DNA from: an uncultured Amylibacter sp.
GTDB taxonomy: Bacteria > Pseudomonadota > Alphaproteobacteria > Rhodobacterales > Rhodobacteraceae
Direction of reading: 5' to 3'
DNA length: 39,361 nucleotides
Assembly: GCA_905182285.1 (NCBI GenBank)
Contig: CAJJAY010000051.1
Coordinates: forward strand, 1-39,361
Part shown: piece by piece, positions 10,383 to 39,361 of the stretch
How positions within the stretch are numbered: the stretch's first letter is position 1
Layout: the number at the start of each line of letters is the position of its first letter
The notes under the pieces: generated by a model
Database searches by the model: none
The model's input: only the letters and a program-made list of their open reading frames with translations
What the model was told of the DNA's origin: nothing
Program-made: the position numbers and the translations under genes

Positions 10383-10416
10383 CTATTGGTCTCCAATGAA
10401 TTAATTTTAAGCTAAC

Positions 10417-10442
10417 ACTGATGGCGATTAATCGCCATCAGT
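10417..10442 (-). other. Intercistronic stem-loop between ugpB and ugpA
   Basis: Perfect 26-base palindrome with 13-base arms (ACTGATGGCGATT and its complement), GC-richer than its surroundings. It lies directly after the ugpB stop. On the minus strand no long U-run follows, so it is more likely an mRNA-stabilising or attenuating hairpin that raises binding protein over permease than a full terminator. Palindromes in this position are known in binding-protein operons such as malE-malF. Confidence 0.75.
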
Positions 10443-10451
10443 TAAAACTAT

Positions 10452-17833: not shown

Positions 17834-17853
17834 AATTTTGCCTTTATAATAAT

Positions 17854-17880
17854 TACCGGCCCCTAAGAATGAGGCCGGTA
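17854..17880 (-). other. Intercistronic stem-loop after the second binding-protein gene
   Basis: GC-rich hairpin with 8-base arms (TACCGGCC and GGCCGGTA) and an 11-base loop, 11 bases after the binding-protein stop. No U-run follows on the minus strand. It stands in the same place as the ugpB-ugpA hairpin but has a different sequence; a role in setting binding-protein level is likely. Confidence 0.7.
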
Positions 17881-17891
17881 TTTCAATTTAA

Positions 17892-19145: not shown

Positions 19146-19180
19146 TTTTATCCTCCCATGGATGTTAAATGTTTTGGCAA

Positions 19181-20206
19181 CTATTGCCCGGTTATGCTCT
19201 CACCTGCACTGTTGAAGATGTGCAAATCTTGGTCATCAAATGTAATATCTATTTTTTGACCTGAAGGGAGCATTGACAAGCCCGGTTGCAATACATTCAA
19301 CCCAGTTGTCCCTTCATGTTCCAATCCGATAAGTGTTTCGGATCCTAGGAATTCTGCCTCTGAAACTCTGCAGGAAAGGCGACCCTCACCTAGAGGTACA
19401 ATGGTAATATTCTCAGCGCGAAGACCAATTCTATTTCCATTTTCAATACCGTTGATAATATTTGAATCAATTAAAGCCATTGCGGGTGCTCCAATAAATT
19501 CTGCAACAAACGTATTTTGAGGATGATTGTATAGATCGTTTGGAGATCCTATTTGTTGGATGTGTCCATCTTTCATTAATACAACTTTGTCTGCCATACT
19601 CATTGCTTCAGTTTGGTCGTGTGTTACGTAAACTACTGTTATACCCAAATCACGCTGTAATTTTTTTATGTCTTTGCGAACTGATGAACGCAATTTGGCA
19701 TCAAGATTTGAAAGAGGCTCATCCATTAAACACAATCGTTGTCCTGCAACAATAGCTCGAGCTAATGCAACACGTTGACGTTGGCCACCAGACAATTCTC
19801 CTGGTTTGCGCTTCTCAAGTCCTTCTAAACCTGTAATTTTTAATGCTCGTTCCATTTTCTCTTGGCGTTCTGCCTTGGGAACTCGGCGGACTTTAAGGCC
19901 AAAAATCACATTTTCCGCTACAGATAAATGAGGGAATAATGCATAAGATTGAAATACCATTGATAAATTGCGATCCGAAGCCGCACTTGTGGTAACGTCT
20001 GCCCCATCAATAAATATTTTACCTTGATCAGGAATTTCAAGACCGGCCAATAGTCGTAAGGAAGTTGATTTACCGCATCCTGAAGGGCCCAAAAGTGCTA
20101 CAAAAGATCCCTCTTCGATTTCTAAAGAAATACCTTCAACACCCAGTTGCCCATTCCATTGCTTTCCAACATTTTCCAGTACAACAAATGGTTTAGTACT
20201 CATCAT
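19181..20206 (-). CDS. ABC transporter ATPase, UgpC/MalK type
   Basis: 341-residue CUT1-type ATPase. Walker [10 protein letters not shown] (residues 40-48), Q-loop VFQSYALFPHLS, signature LSGGQRQRV, Walker B CLMDEP and [10 protein letters not shown] are present, with a C-terminal OB-type domain from about residue 235. The ATG overlaps the stop of the DeoR gene by one base (TAATG). Having the ATPase before the binding protein differs from the B-A-E-C order of the other ugp operon, which argues against a simple duplication of that operon. Confidence 0.9.
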   Translation of the reverse strand: MMSTKPFVVLENVGKQWNGQLGVEGISLEIEEGSFVALLGPSGCGKSTSLRLLAGLEIPDQGKIFIDGADVTTSAASDRNLSMVFQSYALFPHLSVAENVIFGLKVRRVPKAERQEKMERALKITGLEGLEKRKPGELSGGQRQRVALARAIVAGQRLCLMDEPLSNLDAKLRSSVRKDIKKLQRDLGITVVYVTHDQTEAMSMADKVVLMKDGHIQQIGSPNDLYNHPQNTFVAEFIGAPAMALIDSNIINGIENGNRIGLRAENITIVPLGEGRLSCRVSEAEFLGSETLIGLEHEGTTGLNVLQPGLSMLPSGQKIDITFDDQDLHIFNSAGESITGQ

Positions 20207-20979
20207 TATTCTCTTTCTGCTAACAATAAGCTATCGCCTATGTCATCAAGTAAGTGGTTAAATTCTTTATCGGGGCGTTGATCTAGAATTACATGATCAA
20301 CGTCTTTTATATTTTCGCCGTAAGCAGGGGCTATTCGGCCAAATTTTGTACAATCCATAACTAGAAGTGATACTTGGGAGTTTTCTCTGATGCGTTTTCT
20401 AACGCGTACTTCCGAAGCATGGAATTCTAATAAACTTCCGTCCAAAGCAACACCTGCAACACCAAAGATTCCAAACTCAGCTCGATATCTCCCAAAAAAA
20501 TCTAATACTTCATCGCCTAAGATATCACGATCTGGAAGTCTTATTTCTCCTCCAGGAAGTATTATCCTATTAGATAATTCATCGCTTAATACCATTGCTG
20601 CACTAAGATTATTTGTAATAACTGTTAAGTTTTTGCGGCGCCTTAATGCTTTTGCAACACTCAACGGGGTGGAACCAATAGATATAAAAATTGTGGCCCC
20701 ATCAGGTATGAGCTCAACAGCTGCTTCTCCAATATCACTCTTTTCTAATTTGTTGGTTCCGGTTCGTTGATCAAAGGGTGTATTCAAGTATTCAGCACCA
20801 AGCTCTATGCGGCCGTGGCGTCTAACTAATTTATCGCTTTCGCATAACTTATCTATATCACGCCTTATAGTTTGCATTGAAACACCAAGGTTTTCTGCAA
20901 GATCGCCAACAGAGACTGCTCCATGCTCTAAAACAATAGTTGTTATATCATCTCGTCTTTTATTTTTCTTCTTTGACAC
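20206..20979 (-). CDS. DeoR/GlpR-family transcriptional repressor
   Basis: DeoR-family regulator. An N-terminal helix-turn-helix (VSVGDLAENLGVSMQTIRRDI) is followed by the KLVRRHGR segment and a sugar-phosphate isomerase-like sensor domain with the ISIGSTPLSVAKAL ligand loop. I choose the GTG at 20979 (257 residues), because GGGGA lies about 6 bases before it; a TTG 48 bases upstream extends the ORF but falls in the repeat-rich control region. Such regulators usually sense a phosphorylated intermediate, GlpR being the glycerol-3-phosphate example. It leads the transporter-phosphodiesterase operon and is divergent from a HAD gene across nested inverted repeats, so autoregulation and control of both directions are likely. 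Confidence 0.9.
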   Translation of the reverse strand: MSKKKNKRRDDITTIVLEHGAVSVGDLAENLGVSMQTIRRDIDKLCESDKLVRRHGRIELGAEYLNTPFDQRTGTNKLEKSDIGEAAVELIPDGATIFISIGSTPLSVAKALRRRKNLTVITNNLSAAMVLSDELSNRIILPGGEIRLPDRDILGDEVLDFFGRYRAEFGIFGVAGVALDGSLLEFHASEVRVRKRIRENSQVSLLVMDCTKFGRIAPAYGENIKDVDHVILDQRPDKEFNHLLDDIGDSLLLAERE

Positions 20980-21017
20980 TTTAATCCCCAGATTCGTTTT
21001 GTAAGTGTATTTTACTA

Positions 21018-21139
21018 AAAACAACAAAACAACAAAAAAAAGAAAATATATTAAAATAGTTAATGTTTATCAAAATTTATATTACAAAAATATAAATTTT
21101 GATAGAATTTTGGTATTATTTTTGTTGTTTTGTTGTTTT
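21018..21139. promoter_or_regulatory. Nested inverted repeats, DeoR operator region
   Basis: Two perfectly complementary 21-base elements, 21018-21038 and 21119-21139, made of ACAAC/ACAAA units (TTGTTTTGTTG on the other strand), stand 101 bases apart. Between them is a second perfect inverted repeat: 14-base arms at 21068-21081 and 21091-21104 (ATCAAAATTTATA core) with a 9-base spacer. The whole lies between the divergent DeoR and HAD genes. T- and G-rich repeats of the TTTGTT kind are known targets of several DeoR-family repressors, and paired sites allow looping. Binding here is inferred. Confidence 0.6.
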
Positions 21140-21214
21140 GTGTTTGTTTTATCTTATTTCTTATTATAAATAATTTATAATATTATTTTTAATAAACTCA
21201 TTAAAACTTGGATC

Positions 21215-22108
21215 ATGTCTATTATGTTAACTACTCAATCAATATTTGACAGGTATGAAGAAATTCGACCTAGAATGCCTAAAGTTACAACACCAAAGGA
21301 ATATCAGGATATTGATTCACTATTAGATATAGCTGAAAAAGGGACTACATTCGTATTCGATGCATTTGGAGTTCTTAATGTTGGTGAGACTTTAATAGCA
21401 GGTGCTGACAAAAGATTAGCTCAGTTGAGAGTGCTTGGATGCAATATAAGAATTCTTACAAATGCAGCAAGTTATGACCATAATGGGGCAGTTAATAAAT
21501 TTAATCGACTTGGCTTATCAGTCAGTGGAGATGAAATTATAACGAGTAGGGACGCTACATTGCTTGGGCTAAAATCGGGTCTTTGGGGAATAATTGCAGC
21601 TGATGAGGATGAATTAAACGATATTCCACAAGATTTTTTACGTATTCTTGATAATCCAAATGAATACGATCATGTCGATGGGTTTGTTTTTCTTTCTTCA
21701 TCTAGTTGGACAAATGTACGTCAGAATTTATTAATAAAATCACTATTGAAGCATCAACGTCCTGTATTAATTGGAAATGCCGACCTTGTAGCGCCCAGAG
21801 ATTATGGTTTTTCTTTAGAGCCAGGACATTTTGGACATTTATTAGTTGATAATGGTGTAGAAAATGTACAATTTTTTGGCAAACCTTTTCCGAAAGTTTA
21901 TGAAATCCTTGAAAAAACATTAGCTAAAGTTGATTCACGTAAGATTATAATGTGTGGAGATTCTCTTCATACAGATATTATAGGCGCTGCATCTCGAGGT
22001 TGGCAAACTGTTCTTGTTACTCGTGATGGGCTGTTTTCTGGTTTTGAAACATTAGATTTTTGCAAAAAATCAAATTTATATCCTGATTGGCGATTGCCAG
22101 CCATATAG
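21215..22108 (+). CDS. NagD-like HAD hydrolase (class IIA), copy 1
   Basis: 297-residue HAD-superfamily protein of the class IIA (NagD/PNPP) type. Motif I is FVFDAFGVLN with nucleophile Asp49; the usual second Asp (DxD) is Phe51. Motif II RILTNAA, the FFGKPFPKVYE lysine segment and motif IV CGDSLHTDIIGA are present. Predicted to hydrolyse a small phosphate ester in the cytoplasm, though the altered motif I leaves doubt. It is a paralogue of the protein encoded at 26518-27411, which is also 297 residues. It is divergent from the DeoR gene and probably shares its control. Confidence 0.85.
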   Translation: MSIMLTTQSIFDRYEEIRPRMPKVTTPKEYQDIDSLLDIAEKGTTFVFDAFGVLNVGETLIAGADKRLAQLRVLGCNIRILTNAASYDHNGAVNKFNRLGLSVSGDEIITSRDATLLGLKSGLWGIIAADEDELNDIPQDFLRILDNPNEYDHVDGFVFLSSSSWTNVRQNLLIKSLLKHQRPVLIGNADLVAPRDYGFSLEPGHFGHLLVDNGVENVQFFGKPFPKVYEILEKTLAKVDSRKIIMCGDSLHTDIIGAASRGWQTVLVTRDGLFSGFETLDFCKKSNLYPDWRLPAI

Positions 22109-22213
22109 TATAATAATTATTAAACTAATTAATTACAAATGTTATAATATGAAACCAAATTTGAACTTTTAGATATTTAGATATTAGTTCATAGAAAAAG
22201 CCAGGGCTTTAAT

Positions 22214-22870
22214 ATGAAAACTTTAGAAGCAATAATCTTTGACCTTGATGGAACACTTATTCACAGCGCTCCTGATATACAATATGCGTCGAATGAAGCA
22301 TTAAAGTCTATTGGACGTAATCCATTAGATATAAATACAATTATCTCATTTATTGGGAATGGGTCTGAGGTATTAGTTGATCGAATTATTGATGTTACTG
22401 GAGGTGGAAATGAAGTACTAAAGCGTACGACATTTGAAACGTTTATGGAAATATATGAAAAAAATATTACAACATTTACAGTGCCTTATCCAGGTGTAGT
22501 AAATGCTCTAGCTGAATTTAAGGCAAATGGTATAAAGTTAGGTATTTGTACAAATAAGCCAAATAAAGCTGCCATCGACATATGTGATAAGTTGGGAATT
22601 GCAAACTATTTTGACACTATAACAGGTGCAGTTGTTGATAAACCAAAAAAACCAGATCCATTTTTATTAAAAAAGTGTATAAAAACATTAGAAACTACGA
22701 TTGATAATGCTTTATTTGTTGGTGATAGTACTATTGATTTTAATACTGCTGTCGCAACATCAATTGATTTTAAATTGTATTCTGGCGGTTATCTAAATGA
22801 ACCTTACCCTGATTTTAGTAAATTAAATCAATTTAGTGATTGGAACAATCATAACATTACTTATGCTTAG
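22214..22870 (+). CDS. Phosphoglycolate phosphatase-like HAD hydrolase
   Basis: 218-residue HAD phosphatase of the Gph type (class IA helical cap). Motif I is IIFDLDGTLIHSAPD (Asp10 and Asp12, the complete DxD), motif II ICTNKP, Lys in DKPKKPDP, and motif IV FVGDSTIDF. Length fits Gph (about 220-250). It may serve phosphoglycolate salvage as housekeeping, or dephosphorylate a substrate brought in by the phn-type transporter encoded 162 bases downstream. It differs from PhnX phosphonatase, which has DxAGT in motif I. The start ATG has CAGGG about 7 bases upstream. Confidence 0.82.
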   Translation: MKTLEAIIFDLDGTLIHSAPDIQYASNEALKSIGRNPLDINTIISFIGNGSEVLVDRIIDVTGGGNEVLKRTTFETFMEIYEKNITTFTVPYPGVVNALAEFKANGIKLGICTNKPNKAAIDICDKLGIANYFDTITGAVVDKPKKPDPFLLKKCIKTLETTIDNALFVGDSTIDFNTAVATSIDFKLYSGGYLNEPYPDFSKLNQFSDWNNHNITYA

Positions 22871-23032
22871 TATGTCTCAGATTTAAAATGTTTTTTTTAA
22901 TTTTTTAGATTCTTTCTACTTAATTATACGCCACTAAACGAAAAGAAGCGAACATTCCTTGTTGATGTTCAATTGGATATAGTGTTCGATAACAATACTA
23001 GAAAATATTTTACGAAATTTAGGGAGAGTACT

Positions 23033-24007
23033 ATGAAATTAATTAGCTCACTTTTGTCTGGTGCAGCATTAACTTTAACTATGGCTTTAGCAGCCCCTGT
23101 TTTAGCGAATGATTGTCCAAGAGGCGATTTAGATAAGCGATACTGTGACGTTAATGGAGATCTAATAGCAGATACGCCAACAGATGCGTCTGAACTTGTT
23201 GATCCAGACACTTTAATCTTTGCATATACGCCGGTTGAAGATCCTGCTGTATATAAAACTGCATGGTCTGACTTCTTGACACATTTAGAAAAAGAAACTG
23301 GTAAATCAGTTGTATTTTTCCCAGTACAAAATAATGCTGCTCAAATTGAAGCTATGCGCTCAGGACGATTACACATAGCTGGTTTTAACACTGGATCAAA
23401 TCCATTAGCTGTCAATTGTGCGGGATTTAATCCTTTTACAATAATGGCATCAAAAGATGGTAATTTCGGTTATGAGATGGAAATTATTACTTATCCTGGT
23501 TCAGGTATTGAAAAGGTTGAGGACATTAGGGGTAAGCAATTGGCATTTACGTCGCCTACATCTAACTCTGGCTTCAAAGCTCCATCAGCTATATTAAAAG
23601 GTGATTTCGACATGTTGCCTGATCGTGATTTTGAACCTGTTTATTCAGGTAAACATGATAACTCAATTCTTGGTGTAGCAAATAAAGACTACATGGCAGC
23701 ATCAATTGCTAATTCAGTTAAATCTCGAATGATTAGTCGTGATGTTATTAAAGCTGAAGATGTAAAAGTGATTTATAAGTCACAGACTTTTCCAACTACT
23801 GGGTTTGGAACAGCACATAACCTCACACCACAATTAAAAGAACAAATTAGAAATGCATTTTTAAACTTTGAGTGGGAAGGTACATCACTAGAAGAAGAAT
23901 TTGAGAAATCTAATGAGGGACAATTTTTAGAGATGACATACCAAGTATTTTGGGAAGTTATCCGTAAAATAGACACAGCAAATGGCGTAAGCTACGCGTG
24001 TGAATAA
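23033..24007 (+). CDS. phnD: Phosphonate/phosphate-ester ABC binding protein PhnD-like
   Basis: Periplasmic binding protein of the phosphate/phosphite/phosphonate family (324 residues). I place the start at ATG 23033, which follows AGGGAGAG and begins a proper signal peptide (MKLISSLLSG... cut near VLA); a longer ORF begins upstream at 22973. The mature N-terminus has a paired-Cys, acidic segment (DCPRGDLDKRYC, then DVNGDLIAD) that looks like a small calcium-binding loop ahead of the LIFAYTPVEDPAVY domain start. The late SQTFPTTGFGTAHNL segment and the early AAQIEAMRSGRLHIAGF fit PhnD. An intercistronic hairpin follows. Ligands of the family include 2-aminoethylphosphonate, phosphite and phosphate esters; the exact one is not visible. 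Confidence 0.88.
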   Translation: MKLISSLLSGAALTLTMALAAPVLANDCPRGDLDKRYCDVNGDLIADTPTDASELVDPDTLIFAYTPVEDPAVYKTAWSDFLTHLEKETGKSVVFFPVQNNAAQIEAMRSGRLHIAGFNTGSNPLAVNCAGFNPFTIMASKDGNFGYEMEIITYPGSGIEKVEDIRGKQLAFTSPTSNSGFKAPSAILKGDFDMLPDRDFEPVYSGKHDNSILGVANKDYMAASIANSVKSRMISRDVIKAEDVKVIYKSQTFPTTGFGTAHNLTPQLKEQIRNAFLNFEWEGTSLEEEFEKSNEGQFLEMTYQVFWEVIRKIDTANGVSYACE

Positions 24008-24017
24008 ACATATACAT

Positions 24018-24045
24018 AAAGGGCGAGCTTAATTGCTCGCCCTTT
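24018..24045 (+). other. Intercistronic stem-loop between phnD and phnC
   Basis: Perfect 11-base stem (AAAGGGCGAGC with its complement at 24035-24045) and a TTAATT loop, ending in TTT. It lies in the 57-base gap and so may act as a partial terminator or a stabilising structure. GC content is far above the surroundings. Confidence 0.75.
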
Positions 24046-24064
24046 CATAAAAATGGAGAATTAA

Positions 24065-24856
24065 ATGCTTAAGCTTGATAAACTAGTAAAAACTTATAAG
24101 ACTGGAGACCAAGCTTTAAAAGAAGTGGATATTGATGTTCCACAGGGTCAAGTTTTAGCTCTAATTGGCCCATCTGGAGCGGGAAAATCAACTTTAATAA
24201 GATGTATCAACAGATTAGTAGAGCCTACATCTGGTAAAGTATATTTAGACGATATTGAATTAACGAGCCTTTCTTCTGGTTCATTACGTCGAGAGCGTCG
24301 GCGAATGGGAATGATCTTTCAAGAATATGCACTTATAGAACGCCTCACGGTGATGGAAAATGTTTTGTCGGGTCGATTAGGTTATGTTGGTTTTTGGCGT
24401 AGTTTTTTGCGTAAGTTTCCACAATCAGATATTGATGAAGCTTACAGACTTTTGGATCGAGTTGGATTAGCTCATATGGCAGACAAGCGCGCGGATGAAT
24501 TATCTGGAGGCCAGAGGCAAAGAGTTGGTATTTGTAGAGCTTTAATTCAAAATCCTGCCTTACTATTGGTTGATGAACCAACAGCTTCTCTGGATCCAAA
24601 AACATCTCGTCAAATTATGCGATTGATTTGTGAATTATGTAGAGAGCGTGAACTTGCAGCTATTATTAATATTCATGATGTTGCCTTAGCACAAATGTTT
24701 GTTCAGAGAGTTGTTGGGTTACGATTTGGAGCTGTACAATTTGATGGACCACCAGAAGGCTTAACTCCCGATGTTTTAACCATGATATATGGTGAAGAAG
24801 ATTGGGAAGCCACAATTGAAAGCGTTGATGATGAAGATGATTTGGTGACGCTATGA
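24065..24856 (+). CDS. phnC: Phosphonate-type ABC transporter ATPase
   Basis: 263-residue ATPase. Walker [10 protein letters not shown], the PhnC hallmark segment [19 protein letters not shown] and [11 protein letters not shown], signature LSGGQRQRV, Walker B LLLVDEP and INIHDV are all present. The C-terminus overlaps phnE1 by four bases (ATGA). It powers the importer with the two PhnE proteins and PhnD. The AATGGAGAATTAA Shine-Dalgarno lies just after the hairpin. Confidence 0.93.
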
Positions 24857-25674
24857 ATACAGATATTTTTAATGTTCAAGTAAAAATAGGCAAACCTTGG
24901 AAAAAACCACCGTTTGTTCAAAGCAATTTATTAAGATGGGTATTAATAACAGGTTTCGTTATTTACCTAATAGCGGCTTATATGACGATCGATGTAAATT
25001 GGTCTCGTGTTTATGAAGGTTTGGAACGTGGTAAAAAGTTTGTTTTAGCTTTTACCAATCCAGATTTCACATCACGTTCCTCAGATATCTGGGAGGGCAT
25101 GATAGAAAGTATATTGATGACGGTTGCATCTTCTGTTGTTGGTATTCTTATATCTATTCCCATAGCCCTTGGGGCAGCTAGGAATGTTTCACCTTTACCA
25201 GTATATTTAATTTGTAGAGGGATAATAGCAATTAGCCGAGCGTTACAGGAAATTATCGTTGCAATTCTGTTAGTTGCTATATTTGGGTTTGGACCACTTG
25301 CTGGTTTTCTTACTCTAAGTTTTGCTACAATAGGATTTTTATCAAAGTTATTAGCTGAAGATATTGAAAGCATGGATAAAGTTCAGGCGGAAGCAATAAA
25401 AGCATCTGGAGCTAAATGGACACAGTGGATTAATTATGGCGTTCAACCACAAGTAATGCCCCGATTGATTGGATTAAGCATATATAGAGTTGATATCAAC
25501 TTTCGAGAAAGTGCAATTCTAGGCTTGGTAGGTGCAGGGGGTATTGGTGCAACACTTAATACAGCATTTGATCGTTATGAATATGATACTGCTGCTGCAA
25601 TTCTATTGATTATTATCGTAATTGTTATGGCTCTAGAATATTTATCGGGTATTGTAAGAGCGAGGGTTCAATAA
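24853..25674 (+). CDS. phnE1: Phosphonate-type ABC permease 1
   Basis: 273-residue permease with an N-terminal helix (about residues 27-45), a periplasmic loop and about five more helices. The coupling segment [22 protein letters not shown] and the late [15 protein letters not shown] are typical of PhnE. It is translationally coupled to phnC and overlaps phnE2 by one base (TAATG). It forms a heterodimer with PhnE2. Confidence 0.92.
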
Positions 25675-26489
25675 TGCCATCACAAAATAAAAATGGCTTA
25701 AAGGTTTGGCAAAAGCGCACAGCTCGCGAAAGTATATTCCATTGGGTTCTATGGCTAATTGGTATAATGATTTTTACCTACTGTTGGCAGCAAATTTCAA
25801 AATCAACAACTTGGTTTTTTGTTTGGGATGCACCACGTATAGCCACTGATCTTTGGACGCGTGCTACACCACCAAAATGGGAATATATCTCACAATTGGG
25901 TAAACCAATTTGGGATACTCTAAATATTGCTACATTAGGAACAATCTTTGCACTTATTATTGCTGTACCTGTAGCATTCTTGGCTGCTAGAAATACTACA
26001 CCGTCACGCTTTCTGATACGGCCGTTTGCACTGCTAATTATTGTTTCTACACGGTCCATAAATTCACTTATTTGGGCTCTTCTATTGATTGCGATAATTG
26101 GCCCTGGAGTATTTGCAGGAGTAATTGCAATAGCTATTCGCTCAATTGGGTTTTGTGCTAAATTGCTTTATGAGGCAATAGAGGAAATCGATGAAACACA
26201 AGTAGAAGCAATTACGGCAACTGGTGCTTCGCGATGGCAAGTAATGGTATATGGAATCGTTCCACAAATTTTGCCGGCATTCGCTGGTATTGCGGTTTTC
26301 CGTTGGGATATTAATATTCGAGAAAGCACAGTCCTAGGACTTGTTGGTGCTGGTGGTATTGGATTGCAACTCTCATCATCTCTAAATGTATTGGCCTGGC
26401 CACAAGTATCTCTGATTTTAATTGTTATTTTGATTGCAGTTGTTATTTCTGAGTGGGTATCCGCGAAAGTTCGTGGTGCTATTATTTAA
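25674..26489 (+). CDS. phnE2: Phosphonate-type ABC permease 2
   Basis: 271-residue PhnE paralogue with the coupling segment EAITATGASRWQVMVYGIVPQI and [15 protein letters not shown]. The two-permease arrangement is normal for alphaproteobacterial phn importers. The next gene, a HAD hydrolase, starts 28 bases downstream, which ties a phosphatase-family protein to the importer. Confidence 0.92.
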   Translation: MPSQNKNGLKVWQKRTARESIFHWVLWLIGIMIFTYCWQQISKSTTWFFVWDAPRIATDLWTRATPPKWEYISQLGKPIWDTLNIATLGTIFALIIAVPVAFLAARNTTPSRFLIRPFALLIIVSTRSINSLIWALLLIAIIGPGVFAGVIAIAIRSIGFCAKLLYEAIEEIDETQVEAITATGASRWQVMVYGIVPQILPAFAGIAVFRWDINIRESTVLGLVGAGGIGLQLSSSLNVLAWPQVSLILIVILIAVVISEWVSAKVRGAII

Positions 26490-26517
26490 AGAAAGCTAAT
26501 TAGAGTGAGGCCAAAAT

Positions 26518-27411
26518 TTGCAGTCAAATGAAGCTTTTTTAGCATATGAATCAGTACGCCATAGGTTACCTGCAACTTCTAAAATTGGTGAATGTCGTTA
26601 TTTGTTAAATTTAGAAGATCTAGTAGATGAAATTGATGTTTTTTTTCTTGATGCATTTGGTGTTCTCAATATTGGGGATTCAGCTATTAATGGCGTTCCA
26701 GAACGAATTTCTAAATTACAAAGTATTGGAAAAAAAATATTAATTGTTTCCAACGCAGGTGGTTTTCCTCATGAATTATTAATGAAGAAATATAAAAATT
26801 TAGGCTATAATTTTGCATCTGAAGACGTAATTACAAGTAGAAAAGCTTTATTAAAGGGTTTGACAAATTTGCCTTCAAAAAAATATGGCTTAATGGCTAC
26901 AAAAAGTCTTGGGCGTGCAGATTTAGAAAATATTGATGTAACTTATCTGTCTGAAAATATGACTGAATATGATAATTCAGAAGCTTTTCTCTTATTGGGG
27001 AGTGCTGTTTGGACTGAAGTACGTCAAGAAATGTTATTAGATTCTTTAAGACGTAATTCCCGTCCTATTTATGTTGGCAATCCTGACATCATTGCGCCTC
27101 GTGAAGAAGGCTTCTCTGTAGAGCCAGGAAGTTTTGCTCATAGAATTGCTGACTCCACGGGTATTTCCCCTGAGTTTTTTGGTAAACCATTTAAAAATAT
27201 CTTTGACTTGGCATTTAAACGACTTGGAGATTATAATCCTGAAAGAACAGTAATGGTCGGTGATAGTTTGCATACAGATATTCTTGGAGGTCAAACAGCT
27301 GGATTGAAAACAGCATTAATTTCTGGGCATGGATTTTTCTCTGGCCAAAATGTAGACGGGCCAATTGCTTCTTCAGGTATTGTACCAGATTTTATATTAA
27401 AAGACCCTTAG
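26518..27411 (+). CDS. NagD-like HAD hydrolase (class IIA), copy 2
   Basis: 297-residue paralogue of the protein at 21215-22108, sharing FxxDAFGVLN, ITSRxALLxGL, GNxDxxAPRxxGFSxEPG, FFGKPF and GDSLHTDI. Asp45 is the predicted nucleophile; the second motif I position is Phe47 instead of Asp. I take the TTG at 26518 as start: GAGTGAGG lies 7-8 bases before it and no in-frame ATG is near. It sits between phnE2 and the glutamine-synthetase-like gene, so it probably acts on the imported phosphorylated compound or its product. Phosphatase activity is likely, but the altered motif means it should be treated as unproven. Confidence 0.85.
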   Translation: MQSNEAFLAYESVRHRLPATSKIGECRYLLNLEDLVDEIDVFFLDAFGVLNIGDSAINGVPERISKLQSIGKKILIVSNAGGFPHELLMKKYKNLGYNFASEDVITSRKALLKGLTNLPSKKYGLMATKSLGRADLENIDVTYLSENMTEYDNSEAFLLLGSAVWTEVRQEMLLDSLRRNSRPIYVGNPDIIAPREEGFSVEPGSFAHRIADSTGISPEFFGKPFKNIFDLAFKRLGDYNPERTVMVGDSLHTDILGGQTAGLKTALISGHGFFSGQNVDGPIASSGIVPDFILKDP

Positions 27412-27465
27412 AGTATAAAATCCAAAATTTTTTTAATTTTTTACTCATTTGAAAGATAAATAAAA

Positions 27466-28830
27466 ATGCCAAATTCGTTAACATTCGATGAATTAAAAAC
27501 ATTAGTAAAAAAAGGTTCTGTAGATACTGTACTTGTATGTTTTGTTGATATGCAGGGTCGTTTAATGGGTAAACGATTTCATGGCGTTAATTTTATAGAT
27601 TTCTCATATAATGAAACCCACTGTTGTAATTATTTATTAGCCACTGATCTTGAAATGGCAACACCTGATGGGTACGCATCTACAAGTTGGGAAACAGGTT
27701 ATGGCGATTATGTTATGAAGCCTGATTTAAGCACAATTCGTCCATTGCCTTGGTTGGAAGGGACGGTAATGGTTTTATGCGATATTTTAGATCACAATAC
27801 TCATGAACCAATATCACATTCACCGCGAGCGATTTTAAAAAATCAAATAAAACGTTTAAAGGCAATGGGTATTGAAGCTAAAATGGCTACAGAATTAGAA
27901 TTCTTTTTGTTTGAAAAAAGCTTCGAACAAATTAGAAAAGACGGTTTCCAAAACTTACAACCTATTAGTGGGTACAATGAAGATTATCATATTTTCCAAA
28001 CCACTAAAGAGGAAAGCATAATGCGCCCAATTCGGAATCATCTTTTTGATGCTGGTTTACCTATAGAAAATTCAAAAGGAGAGGCTGAAGCTGGTCAAGA
28101 GGAATTAAATATTCGTTATTCACCAGCACTTGATTGTGCAGATTATCATACGATAGCTAAGCATGCCATTAAAGAAATTTCATGGCAGCAGGGTCATGCA
28201 GTATCTTTTCTTCCTAAATGGCATAAAGATAGAGTTGGATCTTCTAGTCATGTTCATCAATCTCTATGGAAAGATGATGAATCTATATTTTATGATAAAT
28301 TGAAGCCTCATGGCATGTCTGATTTAATGAAACATTATATGGCAGGCTTAATAAAATATGCGCCTGAATACACTTATTTTTTAGCTCCTTATGTAAACAG
28401 TTATAAACGTTTCTCAAAAGGTACATTTGCTCCAACAAAGACTGTATGGTCAATTGATAACAGAACAGCTGGATTCCGGTTATGTGGTGAAAACACTGTT
28501 GGTGTTAGAGTGGAATGTAGGATCGGTGGCTCAGATTTAAATCCATATTTGGCTCAATCAGTTATGTTAGCAGCTGGTATAAAGGGAATTGAAGAAAACT
28601 TAGTACTTTCTTCTGCTACAACTGGTGACATTTATGAAGATTCAAAAGCTGCAGACATTCCTCAATCCTTGAGGCTAGCAACTGAAAATCTAAGAAATTC
28701 TGATTTTTTACGAGAGGCATTAGGTGACGATGTAGTTGACCACTACACACGTGCTGCTGAATGGGAGCAAGAAGAATTTGATCGTGTGATTACTGATTGG
28801 GAAATCGCACGAGGCTTTGAAAGGGCATAA
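27466..28830 (+). CDS. Glutamine-synthetase-like gamma-glutamyl-amine ligase
   Basis: 454-residue member of the glutamine synthetase superfamily, on the PuuA/GlnA3/GlnA4 side rather than the biosynthetic GlnA. Active-site elements are present: TELEFFLF (Glu143, Glu145), EAEAGQEELN (about 206-215), GSSSHVHQSL (His262, His264), the NSYKR loop, and WSIDNRTAGFR with RIGGSDLNPYLA. The adenylylation Tyr segment of GlnA is not seen. Members of this group ligate glutamate to amines such as putrescine, ethanolamine or isopropylamine using ATP. It is followed 5 bases later by an aldehyde dehydrogenase and then an iron alcohol dehydrogenase, the enzyme set expected for gamma-glutamylated amino-alcohol oxidation. 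The actual amine is inferred, not shown. Confidence 0.85.
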   Translation: MPNSLTFDELKTLVKKGSVDTVLVCFVDMQGRLMGKRFHGVNFIDFSYNETHCCNYLLATDLEMATPDGYASTSWETGYGDYVMKPDLSTIRPLPWLEGTVMVLCDILDHNTHEPISHSPRAILKNQIKRLKAMGIEAKMATELEFFLFEKSFEQIRKDGFQNLQPISGYNEDYHIFQTTKEESIMRPIRNHLFDAGLPIENSKGEAEAGQEELNIRYSPALDCADYHTIAKHAIKEISWQQGHAVSFLPKWHKDRVGSSSHVHQSLWKDDESIFYDKLKPHGMSDLMKHYMAGLIKYAPEYTYFLAPYVNSYKRFSKGTFAPTKTVWSIDNRTAGFRLCGENTVGVRVECRIGGSDLNPYLAQSVMLAAGIKGIEENLVLSSATTGDIYEDSKAADIPQSLRLATENLRNSDFLREALGDDVVDHYTRAAEWEQEEFDRVITDWEIARGFERA

Positions 28831-28835
28831 GGTTA

Positions 28836-30212
28836 ATGATGATCAAGTGTATTTCGCCAATTGATGGTTCTGTCTATGCTGAACGCAAAGTTTTGACAGA
28901 TATGGAAGCTAATGTTGCAGTTGAACGTGCGAAATTAGCACAAAAAAAATGGGCACTTCTTTCATTGTCTGAAAGAATAAAGCTCGTTGAATCTGGTGTT
29001 GAAGCTGTTGGTGCAATGAACGAAGAAATTGTTCCAGAAATTGCTTGGCAAATGGGTCGACCAGTTAGGTATGGTGGTGAATTTGGTGGCTTTAAAGAGC
29101 GCGCAGATTATATGGCTAAAATAGCAAAAGAAGCACTTGCTCCAATTGTAGTTGAAAATAGTGACAATTTCCGGCGAGTTATAAAGCGCGTTCCGCATGG
29201 AACAATATTGGTAATAGCGCCTTGGAATTACCCTTATATGACTGCAATTAATACTGTCGCACCAGCATTAATTGCAGGTAATTCAGTGTTGTTAAAGCAT
29301 TCCTCGCAAACCATACTAGTTGGTGAGCGATTAGCTGAGGCTTTTCATTCAGTAGGTATTCCAAAAGATGTGTTTCAAAATGTATTTTTTGACCATAAGA
29401 CAACATTAAATTTGATTAAAAAAAAGGCATTCGGTTTTGTAAATTTCACTGGTTCTGTTAATGGGGGAAAGGCAATAGAAAACGCAGCGGCGGGGTCTTT
29501 TACAGGAATAGGGCTTGAACTTGGTGGTAAAGATCCGGGATATGTTATGGAGGATGCGGATTTAGATTCTGCTGTTGATACATTAATTGATGGTGCAATG
29601 TTTAATTCAGGTCAATGTTGCTGTGGTATTGAACGTATATATGTACATGAAAGTCTTTTTGATAAATTTATTGATAAGGCAGTTAAGATTGTAAATGGAT
29701 ATATATTAGGCAACCCATTAGATAATCAAACAACTCTTGGACCAATGGCGCATGTTCGTTTTGCAGATGAGGTGCGATTGCAAATTTCAGAAGCAGTTGC
29801 AGATGGTGCTATAAGGCATATTGAAAGATCAAATTTTCCAAAAGATGGTGGTGCTTACTTGATGCCACAAATTTTATCAAATGTTTCACATCAAATGCGA
29901 ATAATGCGTGAAGAAAGCTTTGGACCAGTCGTAGGTATAATGTCAGTTAAAGATGATACTGAAGCAATTAAGTTGATGAATGATAGTAATTTTGGATTAA
30001 CTGCTTCGCTTTGGACAAAGGATCTTAATCGAGCTGAAGTGATTGCTGATCAAATTGAAACTGGTACTGTATTCATGAATAGAGCAGACTACCTTGATCC
30101 AGGACTTTGTTGGACTGGATGTAAAGACACGGGGCGAGGTGGTGGGCTTTCAATTATTGGTTATCATAATCTTACACGGCCTAAATCATACCATTTAAAG
30201 AAAGTTAATTAG
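28836..30212 (+). CDS. NAD(P)-dependent aldehyde dehydrogenase
   Basis: 458-residue ALDH-superfamily enzyme. The Rossmann-type segment VIAPWNYPY (about residues 126-134), FTGSVNGGK, the general-base Glu in LELGGKDPGYV (Glu228) and the catalytic Cys in FNSGQCCCGIER (Cys262 by alignment) are present, as are the late EESFGPV and NDSNFGLTAS. It would oxidise an aldehyde to the acid. Two ATGs stand together at the start; GAAAGGGCATAAGG covers the ribosome site inside the preceding gene's end. It is tightly packed between the ligase and the alcohol dehydrogenase, so the three are surely cotranscribed and probably sequential. Confidence 0.92.
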   Translation: MMIKCISPIDGSVYAERKVLTDMEANVAVERAKLAQKKWALLSLSERIKLVESGVEAVGAMNEEIVPEIAWQMGRPVRYGGEFGGFKERADYMAKIAKEALAPIVVENSDNFRRVIKRVPHGTILVIAPWNYPYMTAINTVAPALIAGNSVLLKHSSQTILVGERLAEAFHSVGIPKDVFQNVFFDHKTTLNLIKKKAFGFVNFTGSVNGGKAIENAAAGSFTGIGLELGGKDPGYVMEDADLDSAVDTLIDGAMFNSGQCCCGIERIYVHESLFDKFIDKAVKIVNGYILGNPLDNQTTLGPMAHVRFADEVRLQISEAVADGAIRHIERSNFPKDGGAYLMPQILSNVSHQMRIMREESFGPVVGIMSVKDDTEAIKLMNDSNFGLTASLWTKDLNRAEVIADQIETGTVFMNRADYLDPGLCWTGCKDTGRGGGLSIIGYHNLTRPKSYHLKKVN

Positions 30213-30214
30213 AC

Positions 30215-31360
30215 ATGACTATAATAGCGAACTGGTCTTATCCCACATCAATTCGATTTGGTGCTGGGCGTATATCTGAAATAGCGGATGCTTGTGAGGT
30301 GGCTGGAATAAAAAATCCACTTTTGATAACTGATCGTGGTTTGGCTGACATGGATATAACAAAAAAAACATTAGATTTGTTAGAGTCTGCAGGTCTTGGC
30401 CGTAATATTTTTTCAGATGTAGATCCAAACCCCAATCAAAGAAACGCTGAAAATGGTGTGAAAGCGTATCTAGATGGTGGCCATGATGGTGTTATTGCTT
30501 TTGGTGGTGGATCTGGCCTAGATTTGGGTAAGTTAGTTGCATTCTTAGCTGGTCAAACAAGGCCATTATGGGATTTTGAAGATATTGGAGATTGGTGGAC
30601 TAGGGCTGATGCAGACGCCATTGCCCCAATTGTGGCAGTTCCAACTACTGCTGGAACAGGTTCTGAAGTTGGGAGAGCTTCAGTGATAACAAACTCAGAT
30701 ACTCAAGAGAAAAAAATTATTTTTCACCCAAAGTTCTTACCAAGTGTAGTTATTTGTGATCCTGAACTTACTGTTGGAATGCCATCATTTATAACTGCAG
30801 GTACTGGTCTAGATGCGTTTGCTCATTGTGTGGAAGCGTATTGTTCGCCACATTATCATCCAATGTCACAAGGAATGGCTTTGGAGGGAATGCGACTTGT
30901 AAAAAAATATTTACCAATTGCTTATTCTGATGGAGCTAATATTGAAGCTCGTTCAAATATGATGTCTTCGGCCATAATGGGTGCGACTGCGTTTCAAAAA
31001 GGCCTTGGAGCAATTCATGCCTTGTCTCATCCAATTGGGGCCATCTACCATACACATCATGGTACGACTAATGCTGTTTGCATGCCAGCTGTTCTGCAAT
31101 TTAATAAACCCGCCATAAAAGATTTAATTGAAGATGCTAGTAATTATTTATCCATAAATGGTGGATTTGATGGGTTCTGTTCTTTTGTTGATGACCTTAA
31201 CCAATCATTAAATATCCCTAAAAAGCTTTCTGGCCTTGGGATAGATAATCCAGATATTGAACGTATTGTTTCTGGCGCATTGAAGGATCCAAGTACTGGG
31301 GGTAACCCGATAAAGATGACACCTGAAAATACAAGAGAACTTTTGTCTGATATCATTTAA
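30215..31360 (+). CDS. Iron-containing (group III) alcohol dehydrogenase
   Basis: 381-residue Fe-ADH. The nucleotide-binding GGGSGLDLGK (about residues 97-106), VPTTAGTGSE, and the metal ligands Asp200, His204 (LDAFAHCVEAY), His268 (AIHALSHPIG) and His282 (HTHHG) are complete and spaced as in the family. It would oxidise an alcohol to the aldehyde for the ALDH encoded 2 bases upstream. It ends the operon; a convergent gene ends 11 bases downstream. Members act on many alcohols, and in ethanolamine gamma-glutamylation pathways an alcohol dehydrogenase acts on the glutamyl-amide. Confidence 0.92.
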   Translation: MTIIANWSYPTSIRFGAGRISEIADACEVAGIKNPLLITDRGLADMDITKKTLDLLESAGLGRNIFSDVDPNPNQRNAENGVKAYLDGGHDGVIAFGGGSGLDLGKLVAFLAGQTRPLWDFEDIGDWWTRADADAIAPIVAVPTTAGTGSEVGRASVITNSDTQEKKIIFHPKFLPSVVICDPELTVGMPSFITAGTGLDAFAHCVEAYCSPHYHPMSQGMALEGMRLVKKYLPIAYSDGANIEARSNMMSSAIMGATAFQKGLGAIHALSHPIGAIYHTHHGTTNAVCMPAVLQFNKPAIKDLIEDASNYLSINGGFDGFCSFVDDLNQSLNIPKKLSGLGIDNPDIERIVSGALKDPSTGGNPIKMTPENTRELLSDII

Positions 31361-31379
31361 ACAGCTTTGATTTAAACAG
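31355..31379. repeat. Short direct repeat over two convergent stop codons
   Basis: ATTTAAACAG occurs at 31355-31364 and 31370-31379. The first copy holds the stop of the alcohol dehydrogenase gene and the second the stop of the convergent secreted-protein gene. Probably a small local duplication; no stem able to terminate is visible. Confidence 0.6.
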
Positions 31380-32010
31380 GCTTTCCAAATACAATAAGAA
31401 CTGCATATTTTTTCCTCTTACAGCCTTCAACTGGAGGGGGGTCTTCACCAGGCTTTAATGGAAAGGCCGCTATGTCAGCATCTATTGGAGAGCATGTTCC
31501 AGAGGCATTTTCAGGTGTATAGCGAGTAGATCTGCAAGGCCCATGTGTTACATTTGCTATAGTTTTATTATCTGAAAGTGACCATGTTTGTTCACCATTT
31601 ATATTTGGTGGGTCTATAGTTAATAAGGATATATGTTCTTCGCCATTGGTAACATAATACTTACCTGCTGGCATTGGAAACTCTGGGGCTTTCATAATTA
31701 GTCCATTCTCGTCTAGCCACCAATCATCAATATTAAATCTCCAACCTGCTGGAGCCATATTTCCAGCTTTTTGTAAAAGTTTATAAAATCGCAACCAAAC
31801 CCCTATTGGGCCAGGATCAACACGCCATAAGCCCCAAGTTTCCGCACCACTTCCTGATTTAGCATCACTTGGTGCTAATGCTGCAATATATTGCGTCCTA
31901 ATTCTTCGGTACTTAGTTTGAGCGCTAACTGGATTAACTGCACTGACTAATAAAAGGCTAGAAAATAATGCCATCCATTTGCGTCTTGTTATAAGTGATT
32001 TATGTTTCAT
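31372..32010 (-). CDS. Secreted hypothetical protein with Tat-like signal
   Basis: 212-residue protein with an N-terminal export signal: TRRKWM followed by a hydrophobic run ending VNPVSA. The twin arginine suggests Tat export, though a Sec signal is possible. The mature part has no domain I can name; notable are ETWGLWRVDPGPIGVWL, AGWRFNIDDWWLDENGL, and four Cys (in GPCRST, GTCSP and GCKRKK, plus nearby positions as read). Because Trp- and Cys-rich small exported proteins are diverse, no function is assigned. It lies between the alcohol dehydrogenase and the LacI gene and follows the LacI gene by 74 bases on the same strand. Confidence 0.75.
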   Translation of the reverse strand: MKHKSLITRRKWMALFSSLLLVSAVNPVSAQTKYRRIRTQYIAALAPSDAKSGSGAETWGLWRVDPGPIGVWLRFYKLLQKAGNMAPAGWRFNIDDWWLDENGLIMKAPEFPMPAGKYYVTNGEEHISLLTIDPPNINGEQTWSLSDNKTIANVTHGPCRSTRYTPENASGTCSPIDADIAAFPLKPGEDPPPVEGCKRKKYAVLIVFGKPV

Positions 32011-32084
32011 TTATATATCTCATTAATTGAATAGTATAATATATATATGTCAATTTTTAGATTTGGAAATATATTCCTTATTTT

Positions 32085-33128
32085 TTAAGAAATAGGTCTG
32101 AAGCGCTTTGTAGATAATCCAATAGTTAGTTCGGCCTCTAATAATATACCTTGCGTCTCTTGAGTAGGGTTTTTAATGCTTTCAATTAAAAGGTTCGCAG
32201 TTTTGTAGCCTGCTTCTCGAACAGATGATTTTGTCGATGTGAATAATGGAATTTCCCCATCTTCACGAAAATAAGATAAATCATCATCAAATGTAAGAAT
32301 GGAAATATCTTGACCTATTTTTAGATTTTTTTCTTCCAATGCGCGCCTTATTCCCATTGCAATAATTCTTGATGAGGATAAGATTGCTGATGGAGGATTT
32401 TCCATTTCAAATAATTTAAATGTACTTTTATAGCCATATGGTTCTGTCATTTCACCATTAAAGATTTTAGCTTCATCTATGTTTATAATGTTTTCAGATA
32501 ATGCGCGCCTATACCCAGATGCTCTTCGTATAGCAAAATCCATATCAGCGACGCCATTTATTAAGCCAATTGATTTGTGACCTAAGTCAATTAAAAACTC
32601 AGTAGCTCTAAAGAACGCACTTTCATTATTTACATCTACCCAATTGTAACTCTCCTTTACTCCACTTGATCGGCCATGGACAACATAGGGAAGTTGAAGC
32701 TCATTAAGCATAGTAATCCGGTTGTCATTAATTTTGGGTGCATGGAGCACTACACCGTCAACTGCTGATCTTGCAGCTAAATCTCTGTAAGTTTCATGTT
32801 CGTCTTCATCATTTACTGTTGAAAGAAGTAAATCATAATTACTTTCATTATATCTTCTACTAGCACCAGAAATAAAATCAGAAAAAATTGGATTAACTAA
32901 TTCATGTTCTTTTGATGTTGTCATAATATGAGCTATAGTCATTGTTCGACCTGATGCTAATCGTTTTGCTCGTGAGTTGGGCAAATAATTGTATTTTTTT
33001 GCAGCGAGTTGAGCGCGTATGCGAGTTTTTTCGCTCACCTCTGGAAATCCATTCAAGGCTCTACTCACAGTCGTTTGTGAAAGGCCTAATATTATTGATA
33101 ATTTTTTAAGATCAGTTGTATTTTTCAA
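32085..33128 (-). CDS. aglR: LacI-family repressor of the agl operon
   Basis: 347-residue LacI/GalR regulator. The N-terminal helix-turn-helix (LKKLSIILGLSQTTVSRALNG) and hinge (PNSRAKRLASG) are clear, followed by a periplasmic-binding-like sensor domain (from about residue 60) with DGVVLH, GHKSIGLING and ILTFDDD. The only usable start is TTG at 33128: an in-frame stop lies about 35 bases upstream, no in-frame ATG is present, and no Shine-Dalgarno is evident. The start overlaps a half-operator GCGCTTTGAA, suggesting autoregulation. It is divergent from aglE, so it very probably represses aglEFGAK and is released by an alpha-glucoside or a derivative. Confidence 0.9.
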   Translation of the reverse strand: MKNTTDLKKLSIILGLSQTTVSRALNGFPEVSEKTRIRAQLAAKKYNYLPNSRAKRLASGRTMTIAHIMTTSKEHELVNPIFSDFISGASRRYNESNYDLLLSTVNDEDEHETYRDLAARSAVDGVVLHAPKINDNRITMLNELQLPYVVHGRSSGVKESYNWVDVNNESAFFRATEFLIDLGHKSIGLINGVADMDFAIRRASGYRRALSENIINIDEAKIFNGEMTEPYGYKSTFKLFEMENPPSAILSSSRIIAMGIRRALEEKNLKIGQDISILTFDDDLSYFREDGEIPLFTSTKSSVREAGYKTANLLIESIKNPTQETQGILLEAELTIGLSTKRFRPIS

Positions 33129-33139
33129 AGCGCTACCAA
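33122..33139. promoter_or_regulatory. Degenerate LacI-type operator over aglR start
   Basis: TTCAAAGCGC on the plus strand matches one half of the perfect palindrome at 33271-33288; the other half (TACCAA) is degenerate. Its centre is 148 bases from the centre of the main site, close to 14 helical turns, which would allow looping. It covers the repressor TTG start. Confidence 0.5.
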
Positions 33140-33232
33140 TTTTTTTATAAGATAATAAATATCATTTATTTAATCATAGACCAATATACTTGTAAATATA
33201 ATAGGTTATTTAACTTTTTTTAAATGAATCTA

Positions 33233-33261
33233 TTGACTCATTTTTTAATAAGTGTTTATTT
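33233..33261 (+). promoter_or_regulatory. Candidate agl promoter
   Basis: TTGACT (33233-33238), 17-base spacer, and TTATTT (33256-33261). The -10 is poor, but the perfect palindrome at 33271-33288 would then cover the first transcribed bases, as expected of a repressor site. The rest of this 299-base gap shows no gene. Confidence 0.3.
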
Positions 33262-33270
33262 CAGTGAATA

Positions 33271-33288
33271 ATTCAAAGCGCTTTGAAT
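33271..33288. promoter_or_regulatory. aglO: LacI-family operator before aglE
   Basis: Perfect 18-base palindrome ATTCAAAGCGCTTTGAAT with a central GCGC as in many LacI-family sites. It lies in the divergent gap between the LacI gene and aglE, about 140 bases before aglE. The gene symbol is only a label for this operator. Confidence 0.75.
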
Positions 33289-33427
33289 GTTTTATTAAGA
33301 ATAAATATACACTTGAATATATATATAAAGTATTGCTTAATGCGCCTTCGTAATATGAATTATCGAAAGAAAACACAGTTTAGGATTGTTTTCTGGGATT
33401 TTAAATAAAACTTTTGGGAGGTACTAT

Positions 33428-34765: not shown

Positions 34766-34783
34766 TTCAATAAATAATCTCAT

Positions 34784-34819
34784 ATAGGAGCGCAAATTTC
34801 TTTTGCGCTCCTATTTTTT
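34784..34819 (+). terminator. Attenuator/terminator between aglE and aglF
   Basis: 13-base perfect stem (ATAGGAGCGCAAA with complement at 34802-34814), 5-base loop and a run of five to six T. This has full intrinsic-terminator form, yet lies 18 bases before aglF, so it most likely permits partial read-through and lowers permease expression relative to the binding protein. Confidence 0.8.
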
Positions 34820-34836
34820 AATTTTTACAAAAATTA

Positions 34837-36102: not shown

Positions 36103-36114
36103 GGAAATTAAGTA

Positions 36115-37341: not shown

Positions 37342-37344
37342 ATA

Positions 37345-38895: not shown

Positions 38896-39361
38896 ATGGC
38901 GCAAGTAGAATTAAAAGGCGTTAGTAAGTCCTTTGGTAAAATTGAAGTAATTCGCAACGTTGATTTGGAAATTAATAAAGGTGAATTTGTTGTTTTTGTT
39001 GGTCCATCGGGATGTGGAAAATCTACACTTCTAAGATTAATTTCAGGATTGGAAAGCTTAACAACTGGTGATATTGTCATTGCTGATAATGTTGTTAGTG
39101 ACTTGCCTCCATCAAAAAGAGGTATTGCGATGGTTTTTCAATCATATGCATTATATCCTCATATGACAGTTTTCCATAATATGGCATTTTCACTTGATTT
39201 GCAGGGTGTAGCAAAAAAAGAAATTAAAGAAAGAGTCGAGGCAGCAGCAAAAATACTACAAATGGAAGATTTACTTGATAGGAGGCCTGCTGCTTTATCT
39301 GGTGGGCAGAGACAAAGGGTTGCAATTGGAAGAGCGATAGTCAGAAATCCTGATGTGTTCC
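38896..39361 (+). CDS. aglK: Alpha-glucoside ABC transporter ATPase, 3'-truncated by window edge
   Basis: The first 155 codons are visible. My translation from the ATG at 38896 begins [18 protein letters not shown] and includes Walker [11 protein letters not shown] (about residues 36-45), the Q-loop [12 protein letters not shown] and the signature [12 protein letters not shown]. It is a MalK/UgpC-type CUT1 ATPase that powers AglEFG. Walker B and the regulatory domain lie beyond the window. ACGGAGAATTAA before the ATG serves as ribosome site. Confidence 0.93.

Follow-up and report, generated by a model that had tools for sequence, protein, structure and literature searches.

A gpx-like importer operon joined to genes of the ethanolamine gamma-glutamyl pathway in an uncultured Amylibacter

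A draft genome of an uncultured Amylibacter sp. of the Rhodobacteraceae (1.9 Mb in 56 contigs, 84% complete) carries on contig C51 (CAJJAY010000051.1) an ABC importer of the phosphonate type followed closely by four enzyme genes. The whole stretch of DNA analysed, 39,361 nucleotides long, is referred to hereafter as the window. The locus raises the question of what this importer brings in, and whether the enzymes behind it, a HAD-family hydrolase, a glutamine-synthetase-like ligase, an aldehyde dehydrogenase (ALDH) and an iron-dependent alcohol dehydrogenase (Fe-ADH), act upon it. An earlier note on this DNA had suggested that phosphoethanolamine, as the best-fitting candidate, is imported and degraded. 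The reading that we favour, with a probability of roughly 0.64, is that a glycerol-phosphate-type (gpx) importer operon with its HAD gene, behind which the ligase, ALDH and Fe-ADH genes (hereafter the trio) have been inserted, would serve glycerol-phosphate import together with the oxidation of ethanolamine inside the cell. The parts are known and their arrangement is new, no relative examined having shown it. The features concerned, with sn-glycerol-1-phosphate and sn-glycerol-3-phosphate abbreviated to G1P and G3P, are as follows.

22973 to 24007, + strand: gpxB-like gene for a predicted G1P/G3P binding protein, PhnT family (match to PDB 9lf9; nine of nine ligand residues)
24065 to 24856, + strand: ABC ATPase of the gpx importer, PhnC-like (TIGR02315, above cut-off)
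24853 to 25674, + strand: permease of the gpx importer, PhnE-like (TIGR01097, above cut-off)
25674 to 26489, + strand: second permease of the gpx importer, PhnE-like (TIGR01097, above cut-off)
26518 to 27411, + strand: HAD-IIA hydrolase, a frequent fifth gene of gpx operons and candidate glycerol-phosphate phosphatase (TIGR01460, 113.7 bits, cut-off 100.15)
27208 to 27237, + strand: promoter-like site within the HAD gene, TTGGCA-18-TATAAT, 11 of 12 positions (consensus match only)
27433 to 31365, + strand: segment with the trio, missing from the colinear DNA of loci L209 and L210 (blastn)
27466 to 28830, + strand: putative ethanolamine gamma-glutamyl ligase, glutamine-synthetase family, at the ETAGA position (family and neighbourhood)
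28836 to 30212, + strand: aldehyde dehydrogenase at the GAADDH position of the MED193 operon (family and neighbourhood)
30215 to 31360, + strand: Fe-dependent alcohol dehydrogenase at the GETADH position of the MED193 operon (family and neighbourhood)

As the earlier note had said, a single strand carries the importer, HAD, ligase, ALDH and Fe-ADH genes; their spacings run from a 4-base overlap to a gap of 57 bases. The gap of 57 bases separates gpxB from gpxA; gpxA and gpxC overlap by 4 bases and gpxC and gpxD by 1 base, and 28 bases lie between gpxD and HAD. Behind HAD the gaps are 54 bases to the ligase, 5 from ligase to ALDH and 2 from ALDH to Fe-ADH. The start of the gpxB-like gene is uncertain, being either TTG at 22973 (the choice of the open reading frame finder) or ATG at 23033; counted along the long form, the alignment with most homologues begins at residue 10 or beyond, and that with the homologue of genome G678 at residue 4.

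The importer and its probable ligand

The best solved relative of the window's GpxB-like protein is PDB 9lf9/9lfb (phmmer E 1e-146), and 217 of the 309 residues aligned with 9lf9 (70%) are identical. These structures are of GpxB from Marinobacter DSM11874, described in December 2025 and solved with G1P and G3P (PMC12718374, here and below in its accessible parts). The residues around the phosphate, T111, G112, Y138, S168, N169, S170 and H199 (9lf9 numbering), and the two around the tail, R223 and T247, are all kept in the window, and all nine are kept in each of 70 aligned sequences (the window and 69 loci). According to the same source, Arg223 and Thr247 stand at the sites of the Glu and Asp with which PhnD, the 2-aminoethylphosphonate binding protein, holds the amine. 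At the positions thus equated the window protein has Arg252 and Thr276, not the amine-binding Glu177 and Asp205 of PhnD, and it falls short of the PhnD equivalog TIGR03431, scoring 149.7 bits where 261.1 are needed. Because the GpxB ligand residues are kept and the PhnD cut-off is missed, the importer is most likely a glycerol-phosphate importer for G1P or G3P.

The window resembles the GpxBACD systems of Phaeobacter sp. MED193 and Marinobacter DSM11874 (PMC12718374) in its four-gene ABC set, in the 70% identity of GpxB and in the nine ligand residues, and differs from them, as far as they are described there, in that its operon adds a HAD gene and then the ethanolamine trio. The words 'phosphatase', 'haloacid' and 'ethanolamine' occur nowhere in the main text of that paper. 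Binding of phosphoethanolamine by the window's GpxB appears unlikely on its residues, and we grade it no lower since 'ethanolamine' is absent from that main text. In our literature search, with most subscription papers outside reach, no description of a gpx-linked HAD, or of gpx together with the ethanolamine trio, was found.

The earlier note had also reported that phnW, phnX, phnA, phnY, phnZ and C-P lyase genes are missing. Among the scanned open reading frames, which covered part of the window with at most 25 families per protein, no C-P-cleaving or aminoethylphosphonate-degrading NCBIfam family reached its cut-off. Examples below cut-off were TIGR01422 (30.9 against 220) and TIGR03250 (199.6 against 635.65).

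The HAD gene behind gpx

Seventy-three gpx loci other than the window were read, 60 of them from 83 places in a set of family genomes (40 + 20) and 13 from the 14 matching genomes of a genus set. Five lacked either room behind the importer or a second permease, leaving 68 to be scored. A HAD gene of the operon family stood directly after gpxD in 47 of these 68 loci, two of the 47 being nearer to HADx, a paralogue of the operon HAD found upstream in the window. Among 295 family genomes, gpxB (E no greater than 1e-30) and the HAD (E no greater than 1e-45) were each found in 80; 53 genomes had both, 27 gpx only, 27 HAD only and 188 neither (Fisher p 7e-19, a descriptive value, as the genomes are related). 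Proximity followed identity: of the HAD matches at 55% identity or more, 18 of 19 had gpxB no more than 6 kb away, as had 20 of 24 at 45-55%, against 8 of 25 at 40-45% and 1 of 18 below 40%, the last being the window's own HADx. These linkage and distance counts tie the HAD to gpx, not to the trio. The place that the earlier note gave it in a phosphoethanolamine route is not borne out, as it accompanies gpx in many genomes that have no adjoining trio.

The predicted structure of the HAD (pLDDT confidence score 95.2) has HAD-IIA phosphatases as its nearest folds, with mouse PGP first and the glycerol phosphate phosphatase Rv1692 at ranks 38-47. It shares with these enzymes (mouse PGP 7po7, Rv1692 4i9f, chronophin, NagD) the fold and the Mg-site motif GD[ST]LHTD. 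G1P is not known to be a substrate of the ordinary bacterial G3P dehydrogenase. On the model and the linkage, our best guess for the HAD is a G1P phosphatase, at about even odds. Standing behind gpx in many marine genomes, the HAD is a direct candidate for the phosphatase step after uptake, for which the main text of PMC12718374 names no enzyme.

The gpx and HAD genes of plasmid pSC52_2 (L250, 11382-15625) have behind them, with one gene intervening, the genes for phosphatidylserine decarboxylase and pssA, which belong to phosphatidylethanolamine synthesis.

The ethanolamine genes and their insertion

A genome scan with the ligase returned at least 592 relatives, of which the best 80 loci, some on short contigs, were kept. 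All 80 have the ligase, 71 the ALDH and 72 the Fe-ADH; EtoX, of the TRAP transporter EtoVWX, is present in 65, EtoW in 64, EtoV in 62 and RpiR in 60, and an N-formylglutamate-amidohydrolase-like gene occupies the position of the gamma-glutamylglycine hydrolase in 65. A representative EtoX matches PDB 4uab/4xf5 at E 4e-189. This gene set is that of the ethanolamine operon of Phaeobacter sp. MED193 as presented in the accessible parts of PMC10132767, and the window's trio, by family and neighbourhood, is the known ethanolamine gamma-glutamyl pathway, the earlier note having rightly proposed ethanolamine gamma-glutamylation. The likeness to the MED193 EtoVWX/ETAGA-GAADDH-GETADH operon extends to enzyme families and gene order; the differences are that the window's trio has no adjoining EtoVWX, hydrolase or RpiR and has the gpx importer and HAD in front. 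The GlnA4 pathway of Streptomyces coelicolor, likened here by its description in the available parts of PMC6529630, also gamma-glutamylates ethanolamine by a glutamine-synthetase homologue, in another lineage and with another gene set. Two other assignments were rejected on NCBIfam scores: the ALDH as phosphonoacetaldehyde dehydrogenase (199.6, cut-off 635.65) and the Fe-ADH as PsrA (142.2, cut-off 423.7).

The trio has been inserted behind gpx, and its empty site is visible in two genomes of the same genus. By blastn the window is colinear with L210 (genome G696) over 22203-27432 and again over 31366-39359, at about 78% identity, and in L210 only 36 bases lie between the two parts. L209 (genome G678) likewise matches 15653-27432 and 31366-32074. 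Both genomes carry a trio elsewhere (L228 in G696, L227 in G678), with a ligase 63% identical to that of the window.

The conserved importer-HAD-trio block that the earlier note had suggested looking for recurs in no other locus examined. Neither gpxB, gpxC nor gpxD occurs in any of the best 80 trio loci, and no ligase occurs in the 73 other gpx loci, read over stretches of 5-20 kb, so that gpx and trio as a conserved block was rejected. A ligase place is known for 48 of the 80 gpx-bearing family genomes, and among the matches listed only the window has gpx and ligase within 6 kb, the next distance being 81 kb. Two plasmid searches (best 25 of 51 matches and best 25 of 26) had no record in common.

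Trees of the three enzymes (47, 42 and 43 sequences for ligase, ALDH and Fe-ADH) were built from the window, the usable same-genus loci and every second one of the other usable loci. The window's ligase lies among mostly EtoX-linked ligases, apart from those of L227 and L228. We name no donor of the trio because the first support value at the nearest node is only 50 for the ligase, 74 for the ALDH and 69 for the Fe-ADH.

At the empty site L210 and L209 have an 11-pair hairpin, mostly of A-U pairs (in L210 -8.8 kcal/mol, z -1.8, equalled by 11 of 200 shuffles; in L209 -8.5 kcal/mol, z -2.2, equalled by 5 of 200). At the window's junction that sequence is gone and a weaker, interrupted hairpin is found (-6.2 kcal/mol, z -0.9), a change that would fit loss of a terminator. 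A terminator scan of the window had no terminator-like site at the junction and four in all, against 5.0 expected, and a promoter scan found 22 promoter-like sites, against 36.4 expected. As both counts lie below expectation, there is no excess of either signal. The trio would be transcribed either by read-through out of gpx or under its own promoter within the HAD gene.

The ten-base sequence ATTTAAACAG has just two copies in the window, both at the insertion border, at 31355-31364 (end of Fe-ADH) and 31370-31379 (start of the native right flank); the pair is a possible microhomology. The trios of L227 and L228, which have no EtoX, adjoin open reading frames that by eye resemble a GNAT acetyltransferase (162 aa) and a membrane protein (326 aa).

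No EtoVWX genes adjoin the window's trio, and a search of the window genome for EtoX, the one transporter sought there among EtoV, EtoW, EtoX and other ethanolamine permeases, gave no close match (28%). The same holds for G696, G678 and G698 (best matches, with the window, 27-29%) and for G700 (24%). For the gamma-glutamylglycine hydrolase no match was found in the window genome, G696, G678 or G698, and G700 has one at 36%. As positive controls, G697, G705 and G686 have EtoX at 83-96% identity and also the hydrolase. The earlier note was right that the hydrolase is missing at the locus; its expectation that the gene lies elsewhere found no match in the 84% complete genome. G696 and G678 have listed completeness of 100% and 99% (contamination 6 and 4), and the trio contig of G698 starts inside the ligase. 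By these matches, this same-genus group retains the trio without EtoX and hydrolase, and ethanolamine may therefore arise inside the cell.

Nine of the best 80 trio loci have at least 2.5 kb upstream and no EtoX, some of them with other genes there. At L038 (3603-9893) an apparent peptide-type ABC importer stands ahead of the trio in place of EtoX, and exchange of the transporter ahead of the trio may not be unique to the window. The insertion with its empty site, like the retention of the trio in genomes that have lost EtoX, is relevant to a question left open in PMC10132767 in the parts accessible, namely whether lipid head groups are imported intact before their breakdown.

Weighing the readings, and the neighbouring genes

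In the favoured reading, the gpx importer would take up G1P or G3P, as homology and ligand residues suggest, and the HAD, on linkage and fold, would probably remove the phosphate in the cell to give glycerol and phosphate. The ligase would couple ethanolamine to glutamate, and Fe-ADH and ALDH would oxidize the product to gamma-glutamylglycine, as in the described operon. Gpx, HAD and trio would jointly use the backbone and head group of phosphatidylethanolamine, so that the bacterium may draw on the two halves of a common membrane lipid in combination. The ethanolamine would most likely appear inside the cell, one possible source being glycerophosphoethanolamine imported by the UgpB-like system and cleaved by the GpdQ-like enzyme of the genes upstream of gpx, which is the weakest step. 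These and the other neighbours are as follows.

7563 to 11756, - strand: ugpBAEC-type importer (binding protein matches MED193 UgpB, 9lff, E 1e-108)
15340 to 20206, - strand: UgpB-like CUT1 importer and GpdQ-like phosphodiesterase (family scans, solved-structure matches), comprising ATPase 19181-20206, binding protein cutB 17892-19145, permeases 16134-17833 and phosphodiesterase 15340-16137
20206 to 21027, - strand: GlpR/DeoR-type regulator (family scan)
21215 to 22108, + strand: HADx, a paralogue 36% identical to the operon HAD, the two sharing the motif DAFGVL (sequence comparison)
22214 to 22870, + strand: PGP-like HAD (HAD-IA), opening the interval (TIGR01449, 160 bits, below the cut-off of 180)

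Of the nine residues that form the ligand site and clamp of MED193 UgpB, cutB keeps seven. The seven are the four phosphate ligands, Gly303, Arg393 and Trp191, so that all of the phosphate ligands and two of the three glycerol ligands remain, while Glu88 is replaced by Ser and Trp188 by Tyr; these replacements would suit a larger glycerophospho-compound. Its NCBIfam UgpB score is 145.9 bits against a cut-off of 411. The phosphodiesterase has as its nearest solved relative 2dxl (E 7e-22), which we take to be GpdQ, ahead of Rv0805 (E 1e-15). The natural substrate of GpdQ is given as glycerophosphoethanolamine in the accessible part of PMC4926365, and the two proteins together suggest this compound as the internal ethanolamine source. 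A CUT1 set stands beside gpx in 5 of the 73 loci, with the phosphodiesterase in L145, L174 and L209 and without one in view in L172 and L163. Table 1 of PMC10132767 has a 'predicted phosphodiesterase' of MED193, induced by phosphate stress, in one locus-tag block with sugar ABC genes.

Several observations weigh against the favoured reading. On plasmid pSinA (L251), pst and ars genes of the arsenic island flank a gpx-like cassette of 66% identity that has no HAD; three further records at 66-68% come, by their titles, from arsenite-oxidizing or arsenic-site bacteria. Since the nine residues are also kept at loci without the HAD (for example L178, L179 and L244-L248) and such arsenic-linked cassettes exist, residue conservation alone is insufficient to fix the substrate. 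The HAD is missing behind gpx in 21 of the 68 loci, one of which (L174) has a more distantly similar HAD-like reading frame there, and gpx stands without it on a plasmid of Pseudosulfitobacter pseudonitzschiae strain SMR1, a species in which another strain's GpxB binds G1P and G3P. HAD phosphatases usually carry a DxD motif I whose second Asp is the acid/base. At that place the operon-type HADs have Phe (32) or Tyr (12) in all 44 aligned sequences, and HADx has Phe in four of four, so that motif I of the gpx-linked HADs, D-A-F/Y-G-V-L-N, sets them apart from the HAD-IIA phosphatases; the missing Asp speaks against ordinary phosphatase chemistry. As the window genome is 84% complete, the missing EtoX and hydrolase genes count for little when it is taken alone, and G696, G678 and G698 also lack EtoX, yet their trio is not seen beside gpx. 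The ethanolamine source is a guess. The gpx-trio junction is known from one assembly, and the best promoter-like site (27208-27237), 229 bases before the ligase, could drive a separate trio transcript. Both of its hexamers differ in the aligned L209 and L210, and the exact pattern TTGGCA-18-TATAAT is expected 0.03 times in the window, a pattern picked after being seen.

It is these last points, the single junction, the trio apart from gpx in three EtoX-less genomes and the window-specific promoter-like site, that speak for the alternative surviving best, in which it was by chance that the trio, possibly carrying its own promoter, came to lie behind the gpx genes of a streamlined genome, and ethanolamine enters by another permease with no metabolic link between the two halves. 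We consider it unlikely in view of the common orientation and the 54-base gap, the replacement of the 11-pair hairpin by a weaker interrupted one, and the probability that both halves handle products of the same lipids. Quite unlikely, in our estimate, is a more far-reaching form of the favoured reading, in which the HAD would be the missing cytosolic G1P phosphatase, working without the second Asp, and the genome would have built one unit that imports lipid-derived phosphodiesters and monoesters whole and burns their glycerol and ethanolamine halves intracellularly, replacing hydrolysis outside the cell and uptake by EtoX.

Import of phosphoethanolamine, with the HAD removing its phosphate and the trio oxidizing the ethanolamine, would put an ethanolamine pathway to use directly behind importer and HAD and supply the other route that the missing EtoX calls for, and intact head-group import is left open in the discussion of PMC10132767, as far as accessible; the nine conserved GpxB residues, with Arg and Thr replacing the amine-binding acids of PhnD, and the occurrence of importer and HAD together in dozens of genomes without an adjoining trio make it very unlikely. 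That assembly or binning joined unrelated pieces, as a draft of 56 contigs and a junction seen once might allow, is extremely improbable, since it would take two false joins, L210 is colinear with the window on either side, the genes share one orientation, the GC content of the stretch (0.35-0.40) lies within the window's range (0.31-0.41) and the genome has no second close ligase (next best 31%).

Other features of the surroundings touch the gpx-trio operon less directly. In the window's second UgpB, at 10452-11756, Asp and His stand at the positions of Glu88 and Trp188 of MED193 UgpB and the other seven residues are kept; with these changes it may bind a diester rather than G3P. A Na/Pi symporter gene is also found among the neighbours on the - strand. 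The genes that the earlier note had named are present, but the interval opens with the PGP-like HAD, at least 102 bases ahead of the gpxB-like gene, and HADx lies upstream of it. A PGP-like HAD also precedes gpxB in L145, L152 and L209-L212. The region thus holds three HAD genes, at 21215-22108, 22214-22870 and 26518-27411.

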